Of a stretch of 49,036 nucleotides of DNA, positions 45,454 to 49,036 are shown piece after piece. The notes beneath the pieces were generated by a model, which did no database searches, was not told where the DNA came from, and was given only the letters and a program-made list of their open reading frames with translations. The number at the start of each line of letters is the position of its first letter. Position 1 is the stretch's first letter. The position numbers and the translations under genes were made by a program. Location of the stretch: the NCBI GenBank assembly GCA_029260875.1, contig JAJDCL010000001.1:1-49036 (forward strand), given 5' to 3'. Origin of the DNA: Candidatus Saccharimonadota bacterium (lineage in GTDB: Bacteria > Patescibacteriota > Saccharimonadia > Saccharimonadales > OFTM59).

Positions 45454-45915
45454 TTACTTGATGCGACTTTTAAGTGCACTAAGTCTTGGGATAAAAGATT
45501 GCGCAGCGCCATCCAGGCCAAGGACTTTCAATGCACCGATTAAAACATATAATTCATCCAGCTCTTTTGGCTCTATAACGGCAGATTGTTCTAAGTTTTC
45601 AAAGAAATACTCAACTTTTTCTACCAGCCATTTTTCTTCGCCAGGCTTGATCTCGTTACTCTTCAGCTTTGTGGCCTGATCATTATTAACAACCTCTAGT
45701 GAACGAGCAGAGCGATCACGCTTTCTGAGGTGCCCGCGTTTGATAAGATTGTTAACATGTAGCGCCACAGTAGCGACCGACGTATAGCCAGTGCCTGCCA
45801 TTATTTCACGGTAACTTGGGCTATAACCGTGCTCGCCAATAAAGCTCTCAATAAAAGTCAGGAGCTCCTTCTGCTTCTTAGTTGGCAGCATCTTCTCGCT
45901 CATCATTTGTTCCAT
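45454..45915 (-). CDS. LexA-like DNA-binding protein without the protease domain
   Basis: 153 residues. The first 70 match the LexA winged-helix domain: LPTKKQKELLTFIESFIGEH, GYSPSYREIMAGTGYTSVAT and VALHVNNLIKRGHLRKRDRS. The S24 autoprotease part (Ser/Lys dyad) is absent. The C-terminal 80 residues are helical and unfamiliar. It cannot self-cleave, so it is a regulator of another signal than classic SOS. It precedes the ABC operon by 9 bases and may control it. Its start lies inside the repeat arm of the neighbouring cassette. Confidence 0.75.
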   Translation of the reverse strand: MEQMMSEKMLPTKKQKELLTFIESFIGEHGYSPSYREIMAGTGYTSVATVALHVNNLIKRGHLRKRDRSARSLEVVNNDQATKLKSNEIKPGEEKWLVEKVEYFFENLEQSAVIEPKELDELYVLIGALKVLGLDGAAQSFIPRLSALKSRIK

Positions 45916-46361
45916 TTCACATTTATTATTTTACATTTTTCAGCAATTTATCACTTACCATTTTTCAACGTCGAAACAATTTTCTGAAAGATAAACAGAA
46001 ATTGTGAAACTTCGTCTAACAGCTCATCAATCATCTGCTCCTCTATTAACTCAGCTCTTAGTAACTGCAGCCAGTAGCGAGTTTCAGCAGCCTCTTTTTT
46101 CGCTATGAAAACTTTATTGCGAAAGTCTAGTCTAGAACTAGCGTTGTTGGCTTCCGTATAATTTGCACCGATACTGGTCGCACTGCGTACAAGTTGCGTA
46201 AGAATGGGTCTCAACACAGTATCTTGATTATATTTTCTGGCTACTTGGACGGTCTTTATACTGAGAGCTAGCATACGATCTTCAAGTTCTTTGGATATTT
46301 GTTGCGAACTGCGTTGTGGGTTGTTCATTGTTAAATTACTGTGAAATGTGAATTGTTACTT
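45911..46361. mobile_element. Candidate cassette: four-helix-bundle gene between imperfect inverted repeats
   Basis: Left arm 45911-45959 and right arm 46325-46361 are imperfect reverse complements. For example, TTTACATTTTTCAGCAATTT on one side aligns with the complement of the other, TTCACATTTCACAGTAATTT (19 of 24 positions over the longest match). Units like AAATGTGAAATG recur in both. The arms include the stop codon and the bases next to the start codon of the gene. The same arms occur without a gene at 12911-13006. Confidence 0.5.
45951..46328 (-). CDS. Four-helix-bundle protein (23S rRNA IVP/bAvd-like family)
   Basis: 125 residues, fully helical. SKELEDRMLALSIKTVQVA, LVRSATSIGANYTEANNAS and SRLDFRNKVFIAKKEAAETR are the hallmark stretches of PF05635-type proteins. 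These are encoded in some 23S rRNA insertions and are related to the accessory protein of diversity-generating retroelements. No reverse transcriptase or variable repeat is near. Biochemical role unknown. The gene is bounded by the inverted repeats described at 45911-46361. Confidence 0.8.
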   Translation of the reverse strand: MNNPQRSSQQISKELEDRMLALSIKTVQVARKYNQDTVLRPILTQLVRSATSIGANYTEANNASSRLDFRNKVFIAKKEAAETRYWLQLLRAELIEEQMIDELLDEVSQFLFIFQKIVSTLKNGK

Positions 46362-46385
46362 ATAAATTTCTCAGCTTCTATCATT

Positions 46386-46808
46386 CTATACCCTAACTAC
46401 CCGGCGACGCTTATGAAAGACCCATAGTTTGAAAAATACGTAGTTCCATACAGTGAAAAACCCAGCACTGATAAATTGGCCTATATACGGTGATATACCT
46501 ATCTCTCTAAGCCCTCCGACAATTGCCAGATCAATCAGGAAATTCACAAACATCAATGAATAAAATCGTGATGCAGTGGTCTCAATTTGCTTTTTAGAAA
46601 TCTTCTTTTGGCCGAATACCCAGAACCGCTCCAAAAAGAAATTTACACTGACCCCCAAAAAGTAAGATATAGACTTAGCCCACCAGAAAGTTATCCCAAA
46701 TATTTGGTCAAACAACGCAAAGGCAGCGTAGCCACTCCAGAACTGCGCACCACCGGCGGCCATATACTCACTAAATCTTATTAGTTCTTTTTTTTGCTTC
46801 TTCTTCAT
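46386..46808 (-). CDS. GtrA-family membrane protein
   Basis: 140 residues, four helices: FWSGYAAFALFDQIFGITF, AKSISYFLGVSVNFFLERFW, FYSLMFVNFLIDLAIVGGLR and FISAGFFTVWNYVFFKLWVF. The N-F-x-x-x-R-x-W-V-F and N-Y-x-x-x-K-x-W-V-F motifs define GtrA, which is thought to flip lipid-linked sugars. It lies divergent from the glycosylphosphotransferase gene and fits that pathway. Confidence 0.85.
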   Translation of the reverse strand: MKKKQKKELIRFSEYMAAGGAQFWSGYAAFALFDQIFGITFWWAKSISYFLGVSVNFFLERFWVFGQKKISKKQIETTASRFYSLMFVNFLIDLAIVGGLREIGISPYIGQFISAGFFTVWNYVFFKLWVFHKRRRVVRV

Positions 46809-48302: not shown

Positions 48303-48734
48303 ATGGTAGGCGGTAGATAGTAGATGGTAGATGGCAAGATTAATTCATTTGAAGACCTGAATTCTTGGCAAGAAGCTCAAACCCTTGGCGTGCAGGTATA
48401 TGCAATTTCTAAATCTTTTCCAAAGGAAGAAATTTTTGGGTTAACAAGCCAGGTGAAGCGTGCCGTTGCTTCTGTTTCAGCAAATATTGCAGAAGGCTTT
48501 GGCAGAAGAACGCTCAAAGATAAGCTTCAATTCTATACGATAGCTTACGGTTCATTACTTGAGACAAAAAACTTCCTATATTTAGCTAACAAGCTGACTT
48601 TTCTTGATAAGCAAAACTTAGATAAACTCTTAGCACAAGCTACCAGTTGTCAAAAGTTACTAAACGCACTTATGCGCTCATTAAGGAATCATGCCTAACA
48701 CCCCACCTACCACCTACCACCTACCACCTACAAA
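48303..48734. mobile_element. Candidate cassette: second four-helix gene between reiterated GGTAGRT inverted arrays
   Basis: Left array 48304-48335: ATGGTAGGCGGTAGATAGTA then GATGGTAGATGG. Right array 48703-48730: CCACCTACCACCTACCACCT and on, the reverse complement of GGTAGGT units. So 7-bp GGTAGRT-type repeats face each other around 48324-48698. The left array contains the gene's start codon. The right array lies inside the coding start of the next gene. Confidence 0.5.
48324..48698 (+). CDS. Four-helix-bundle protein (23S rRNA IVP family), second copy
   Basis: 124 residues. LNSWQEAQTLGVQVYAISKS, LTSQVKRAVASVSANIAEGF and GRRTLKDKLQFYTIAYGSLL are textbook signatures of the 23S rRNA IVP family (A-x-S-I/V-x-x-N-I-A-E-G). 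It is clearly a different branch from the copy at 45951-46328. The ATG lies in the GGTAGAT array. Its stop overlaps the start of the glycosyltransferase by 8 bases. Confidence 0.85.
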   Translation: MVDGKINSFEDLNSWQEAQTLGVQVYAISKSFPKEEIFGLTSQVKRAVASVSANIAEGFGRRTLKDKLQFYTIAYGSLLETKNFLYLANKLTFLDKQNLDKLLAQATSCQKLLNALMRSLRNHA

Positions 48735-49036
48735 CAATAGCAACCTGAAGGTTGCTATTGTTTGCGACTGGCTAACCGGCACAGGCGGCGCCGAGCGAGT
48801 GGTCCTAGAACTGCACCATATGTTTCCAAAGGCGCCCATTTATACCTCTCAGTATGACCCAGACCCATCCATATGGTACGGCGGCAATTGGTTTAAAGAT
48901 GCAGACATTAGAACCGGTTGGCTACAAAAACTACCTAAAGGGCTGAAGAAGTTTTTGCCAGTCCTTCGCGCCATGTGGTTCTCGCATCTTGATCTATCAG
49001 ATTATGACCTGGTTATATCAGCCAGCGGCGCCGAAG
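48691..49036 (+). CDS. Glycosyltransferase, GT4-like (partial, runs off the window)
   Basis: The frame from ATG 48691 reads MPNTPPTTYHLPPTNNSN, then LKVAIVCDWLTGTGGAERVV, the family-4 donor-side start with GGAE. LHHMFPKAPIYTSQYDPD and LSDYDLVISASGAE follow to the edge. The first 16 residues are encoded by the CCACCTA repeat array and are not family sequence. An alternative start is CTG at 48745. It probably extends the sugar chain begun by the enzyme at 46877-48301. Confidence 0.85.
   Translation, partial: MPNTPPTTYHLPPTNNSNLKVAIVCDWLTGTGGAERVVLELHHMFPKAPIYTSQYDPDPSIWYGGNWFKDADIRTGWLQKLPKGLKKFLPVLRAMWFSHLDLSDYDLVISASGAE
48732..48763 (+). promoter_or_regulatory. 14-bp perfect hairpin at the glycosyltransferase start
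   Basis: AAACAATAGCAACC-tgaa-GGTTGCTATTGTTT. The right arm encodes the conserved VAIV strand, so it overlaps coding DNA. It could attenuate read-through from the four-helix gene or control translation. Confidence 0.6.

Follow-up and report, generated by a model that had tools for sequence, protein, structure and literature searches.

Why should a small gene of the four-helix-bundle family PF05635 lie between inverted repeats, at a junction where its two neighbouring genes otherwise abut? The question is raised by a 49,036-nt stretch of Candidatus Saccharimonadota bacterium (positions 1 to 49,036 of contig JAJDCL010000001.1, assembly GCA_029260875.1; the whole stretch is hereafter called the window), in which a PF05635 gene at 45951-46328 on the minus strand ("gene 2") stands between a GtrA gene and a LexA-like gene. 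Another PF05635 gene, at 48324-48698 on the plus strand, is referred to as the "second element", and these two are the only PF05635 genes found in the genome. No function is known for PF05635, a widespread family. Our analysis points with fairly high confidence to a minimal mobile DNA element (~0.4-0.5 kb) that encodes the PF05635 protein alone and was inserted at the GtrA/LexA-like junction, oriented along the operon. The gene 2 locus is probably a somewhat degraded copy of such an element. Its parts and its host junction are as follows.

45454..45915, minus strand: downstream host gene, LexA DNA-binding-domain protein (Pfam PF01726, E 1.4e-13; matched in 89/100 relatives)
45902..45907, minus strand: candidate target duplication AATGAT, copy by the start of the LexA-like gene (weak; 9% of shuffles equal it)
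45916..45968, no strand: downstream arm relative to gene 2, made of inverted heptamers TGAAAAA TGGTAAG TGATAAA ... TGTAAAA TAATAAA TGTGAAA (lag-7 self-match 0.52)
45916..46385, minus strand: 470-nt insert, from the GtrA stop codon to the LexA-like start (relatives lack the insert at the same junction)
45951..46328, minus strand: PF05635/TIGR02436 four-helix-bundle gene, 125 residues, sole gene of the element (intact open reading frame, profile matches)
46329..46372, no strand: upstream arm relative to gene 2, made of degenerate heptamers ATTTATA AGTAACA ATTCACA TTTCACA ..., entering the gene 2 ATG (lag-7 self-match 0.49)
46380..46385, minus strand: candidate target duplication AATGAT, GtrA-side copy (weak; 9% of shuffles equal it)
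46386..46808, minus strand: upstream host gene, GtrA/DPMS transmembrane protein (Pfam PF04138, E 1.8e-18)

The family assignment of gene 2 is clear from both Pfam PF05635 (23S_rRNA_IVP; E 2.5e-15, 57 bits, curated cut-off 33.8) and NCBIfam TIGR02436 (E 2.3e-20, 72.8 bits, cut-off 24). The first-pass annotation of this DNA had proposed inverted arms matching at 19 of 24 positions around the gene, and this was reproduced when the reverse complement of 45905-45995 was compared with 46315-46385 (best ungapped 24-mer 19/24; TGATAAATTGCTGAAAAATGTAAA / TGTTAAATTACTGTGAAATGTGAA). Shuffled AT-rich sequence did not match equally well: none of 300 dinucleotide shuffles equalled the 24-mer, and when both arms were dinucleotide-shuffled 20,000 times in a gapped test, the result was P=0.003. 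The arms are also built of repeats, as had been suggested, but the proposed unit, AAATGTGA, fits less well than a degenerate, TGTGAAA-like heptamer (lag-7 self-match 0.52 in the left arm and 0.49 in the right). That the repeats extend into coding ends likewise holds, as one arm contains the ATG of gene 2 and the other covers the 3' end of the gene and stops at the LexA-like ATG (45915). In a scan of the whole window with one spacer length, the top two sites were the two PF05635 genes (scores of 34 at 48330 and 31 at 45960-45990; the next was 26), and a multi-spacer scan, which ends before the second-element gene, ranked gene 2 first (38) with one unrelated site at 34. Taken by itself, the arm match of gene 2 is moderate evidence, and the family-wide data are decisive.

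Family-wide, an arm score was calculated by comparing the reverse complement of the upstream 200 nt with the downstream 200 nt at 98 PF05635 loci of the class, with a threshold of at least 29. Mismatched pairs, 188 pseudo-genes set in the same DNA and the flanks of 25 LexA-like genes served as controls. The mean score was 34.0 for the real loci compared to 20.4, 19.9, and 19.8 for the three controls, respectively, and the threshold was reached by 67% of PF05635 loci against 3% of pseudo-genes (Mann-Whitney p 7e-26). Arms were found in none of the nine fetched divergent members (<50 bits) and in 74% of the other members. Among the 66 armed loci, self-match at lags 7, 14, and 21 was 0.55, 0.52, and 0.43, respectively, most other lags lying near 0.28, and the period peaked at 7 in 62 loci. 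The repeat unit varies from locus to locus, even within one genome, and own arms outscored every within-genome cross pairing in 39/39 loci, although these loci had been preselected at an arm score of at least 29, which favours own pairs. Arm polarity tracks the subfamily: among loci with a bias in the upstream arm, those of the gene-2-like type mostly show G<C (13 of 17) and the others mostly G>C (43 of 46). Beyond the class, 75 loci were sampled from further Patescibacteria and from other phyla, and 75% of them scored above the 95th percentile of mismatched pairs; the period there was mostly 7, with 6 in Chryseobacterium, 8 in some Rhizobiales and Balneolaceae, and 10 in a Dehalococcoidia bacterium. 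The collection was scanned for relatives with a single protein as query, a mixed alignment being too diverse, and the phage sequences searched gave no match. Within the protein, the residues Q43, R46, S50, N54, E57, and E80 (second-gene numbering) are invariant across both subfamilies in 25 sequences, and solved relatives are 2gsc (XCC0516) and 2rld.

The second element carries the same architecture on a different heptamer from that of gene 2, with P<5e-5 for its arms in the gapped shuffle test. It had been argued that two unrelated repeats in one architecture around one gene family make coincidence unlikely; in light of the class-wide frequency and of the arms at most sampled loci of other phyla, this argument holds more strongly than it was made.

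48304..48334, no strand: second-element upstream arm, built of GGTAGAT heptamers (lag-7 self-match 0.77)
48324..48698, plus strand: second PF05635 gene, 124 residues (Pfam E 3.1e-34)
48701..48733, no strand: second-element downstream arm, built of CCACCTA heptamers (lag-7 self-match 0.86)
48731..48764: perfect hairpin of 15 bp on the outer edge of this element; half of it is coding sequence of the glycosyltransferase

Perfect hairpins at the outer downstream edge of the element also occur at L025, L033, L034, L044, and L045, where they include the start of the next gene, while loci of the glycosyltransferase site without the element have no hairpin of comparable size. At 48689-48745 of the window, an ATG in the glycosyltransferase frame overlaps the stop codon that ends the second PF05635 gene (ATGCCTAA), and, when read in this frame, the downstream arm can encode the N-terminus (TTYHLPPT) of the glycosyltransferase. 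The end of the window's contig continues in contig 28 with the same glycosyltransferase, 80 residues being 100% identical (G000:C1:48742-49035; G000:C28:2-241).

Whether the gene and its arms entered the junction as a unit can be judged from relatives. Of 29 related loci, 27 have GtrA and the LexA-like gene side by side, and the distance between the two is at most 11 nt (abutting or overlapping) in 19 of the 22 measured loci. The 470 nt between the GtrA stop and the LexA-like start in the window thus correspond to a precise insertion, the site being empty in relatives at gene level; a genome of the same genus has neither GtrA nor a full-length LexA-like homologue, and so offers no empty-site comparison. 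A solo exact array, AGTACAC x4, lies at the GtrA/LexA-like junction of one relative (L112), and another relative (L138) has a solo array at the junction that the second element occupies in the window. Occupied and empty sites were resolved at base level on cyanobacterial plasmids that are 92-97% identical. On plasmids of 97% identity, the element is present in Trichormus (L162) and Scytonema (L251), with GTAA flanking the insertion on both sides, and is missing from Aulosira, Nostoc linckia, and Microchaete. Nostoc plasmids provide a further occupied/empty pair at one junction, flanked on both sides by TTCTA, and an element with different arms lies one gene beyond it. Moreover, a plasmid of Picosynechococcus PCC 7003 (L164, 1489-1845) has a PF05635 element inside a type III-B clustered regularly interspaced short palindromic repeats (CRISPR) operon, between cmr2 and cmr3, where PCC 7002 (L252) has none. 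Judging from these sequence comparisons, the PF05635 gene together with its arms is an insertion.

The insertions favour particular positions. Across 56 loci, the median distance between the preceding co-directional stop codon and the start of the upstream arm is 3 nt, and in 64% the arm begins within 15 nt of that codon. Both neighbours (strands taken from the longest open reading frame in 600-nt slices) are co-directional with the gene in 42 loci and both opposite in 6. This sense bias could be explained by selection against antisense insertion, or by a need of read-through, as well as by the mechanism of movement.

Arms also occur apart from the gene, either as pairs that lack it or as solo arrays. 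A gene-less element bearing the same heptamer arms splits a PF05635 gene in Nostoc N6 (L257), and at L250 a remnant consists of the left arm and a truncated PF05635 gene. In the Saccharimonadota genome itself, a gene-less pair of arrays spans ~70 nt (G000:C2:9848-9914), and solo heptamer arrays, as found by pattern search only, lie at other places. On another contig (G000:C21:25900-26050; L269), two adjacent heptamer arrays with the units GTAGTTA and CATACTT stand without a PF05635 gene.

The arms, their period, their recurrence across phyla, the occupied and empty sites, the gene-less and solo arrays, the preference for stop-start junctions, and the sense orientation can be read from DNA, and a mechanism may be proposed beside them. 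The oligomeric four-helix protein would bind the paired or single-stranded arms and promote movement, while the cutting or replication step may come from the host or from another trans-acting nuclease or replication function. Gene-less arm pairs would be moved in trans by the PF05635 protein, and the two arms of one element may be kept matching by joint copying or correction. Several points weigh against a mobile element. PF05635 has no recognisable catalytic domain, movement has never been observed, and about a quarter of the strong members have no detectable arms. The target duplications are short and inconsistent (4 nt, 5 nt, perhaps 6 nt), and the arms of gene 2 are imperfect, with P=0.003 if taken alone. 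Furthermore, arm sequences differ so strongly among loci that a single sequence-specific recognition site is excluded, and recognition of shape or of local repeats would be required.

Other explanations have to account for the same observations. The arms might act at the RNA level, forming a stem in the operon transcript that is cut out by RNase III as in rRNA intervening sequences (PMC4990558), with mobility being incidental; the sense orientation of PF05635 elements within operons and the pairing of the arms in the predicted fold of the transcript would suit such a role. However, the function of an RNA stem leads one to expect tolerance of G.U pairs, and the arm mismatches lack any such bias (107 G.U vs 135 A.C; 18 loci vs 30) and so give no support, the whole element folds as RNA no better than shuffles (z -0.37), and both gene-less pairs and solo arrays are present in DNA, where a solo array has no pairing partner. 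We consider this explanation unlikely. When the whole element is folded as DNA, the arms pair in the optimum and the energy is unexceptional (z -1.13). It is quite improbable that the arms are moved in trans by the Y1 transposases (PF01797) of the same genomes, known as repetitive extragenic palindrome (REP)-associated tyrosine transposases (RAYT), with PF05635 as a helper. Genomes with strong PF05635 matches have Y1 genes more often than the others (32/55 compared to 52/338; Fisher p 8e-11, phylogeny uncontrolled), and four Y1 genes are present in the genome studied here, yet 23 of the 55 PF05635-bearing genomes have no Y1 match, and beside the Y1/RAYT genes of such genomes lie REP-like palindromes rather than heptamer arms.

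Much less credence still can be given to a host regulatory module, in which the arms would be binding sites or attenuators for the downstream gene and PF05635 the regulator. Heptamer arrays in other bacteria have been interpreted as regulator sites (PMC2700814, PMC4679880), but here the downstream gene changes between sites, near-identical relatives have empty sites, and the arm sequence is unconserved. Movement by a reverse transcriptase, which is suggested by the likeness of PF05635 to Avd of diversity-generating retroelements, appears scarcely tenable. Weak PF05635 matches do adjoin reverse transcriptases and the Saccharimonadota genome has two reverse transcriptase matches; the weak members examined, however, have no arms, and strong members are not associated with RVT_1 (13/55 genomes vs 107/338 others, p 0.27). 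A reverse transcriptase is therefore not needed, and genomes with 6-10 PF05635 copies (G220, G319, G033, and G278) have no match to one. Chance complementarity of AT-rich DNA draws on the result for gene 2 alone, which reaches only P=0.003 in the gapped test, but the class-wide and cross-phylum statistics refute chance for the family as a whole and reduce its probability at this locus to a practically negligible level.

A mobile element of this kind resembles known systems in part. In Coxiella, the rRNA intervening sequence measures 428 nt and has complementary ends and an S23p open reading frame, and tandem heptamers (GACAGAT), whose copy number is strain-variable, directly precede the S23p ATG (PMC4990558). 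The 23S rRNA intervening sequences with S23p frames, in Coxiella and Leptospira, share with the present element the protein family, a length of ~0.43 kb, and complementary termini around the frame. In contrast, the present element lies outside rRNA, between GtrA and the LexA-like gene and generally at junctions of protein operons, both of its arms are built of tandem repeats, its gene is intact, and it is known here from DNA alone. Given its position outside rRNA, it is not classed as a member despite the resemblance. A literature search, which did not cover most subscription journals, found no account joining PF05635 to such arms outside rRNA.

Unexplained heptameric repeats have been described in Xanthomonas and Nostoc, frequently as inverted pairs in Xanthomonas (PMC4692102), and also in Beggiatoaceae (PMC4679880) and Geobacter (PMC2700814). 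These and the cyanobacterial short tandemly repeated repetitive (STRR) sequences, including those of Calothrix, are alike to the present arrays in being 7-nt tandem, intergenic, and, in Xanthomonas and Geobacter, often paired in inverted orientation. They were described without a gene or a cause, whereas the present arrays flank PF05635 genes and also form gene-less copies. We infer a link between heptameric repeats elsewhere and PF05635, identity with the arms having been compared only for the Nostoc plasmid arms. The element may thus account for scattered 7-nt repeats, a puzzle since 1990.

Miniature inverted-repeat transposable elements (MITEs) and REP sequences or their paired form (REPIN) with RAYT are tiny, intergenic inverted-repeat DNAs that are mobilised in trans. 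The present element is alike in size, location, and, as proposed here, movement in trans, but those families have one conserved end sequence each and a known transposase, whereas the present ends are locus-specific. Among the RAYT/Y1 genes inspected (L272-L291), REP-type palindromes lie mostly on both flanks. Insertion sequences are similarly discrete insertions with inverted ends, one gene, and an empty site in relatives; here, by contrast, the only gene is PF05635, with no recognisable transposase, and the ends are degenerate tandem repeats. Avd belongs to the same Pfam family through weak matches, but it adjoins a reverse transcriptase, and the divergent members examined have no arms. No reverse transcriptase is found among the genes neighbouring gene 2. 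One RVT_1 match of the genome lies on a different contig (G000:C24:8462-9109).

Taken more broadly, these elements may form a class whose sole protein is a four-helix bundle without recognisable catalysis and whose ends are locus-specific tandem repeats of 6-10 nt, regenerated rather than recognised by sequence. Such a class would span many phyla, would be the source of STRR and other heptameric repeats, and would include rRNA intervening sequences as a special case; we regard the case for and against this generalisation as evenly balanced. Should PF05635 prove to be the gene of such a minimal element, many of the four-helix-bundle proteins annotated within operons would be insertions. The linkage of PF05635 to CRISPR may then be hitch-hiking, as in the cmr2-cmr3 insertion of PCC 7003, and the appearance of 23S rRNA IVP among the domains in a figure on CRISPR-linked systems (PMC10910872) may reflect an insertion of this type. 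If true, bacterial heptameric repeats would gain a testable candidate cause, and the upkeep of matched, locus-specific arms together with the cutting of DNA would become new questions on mobility without a recognisable transposase.
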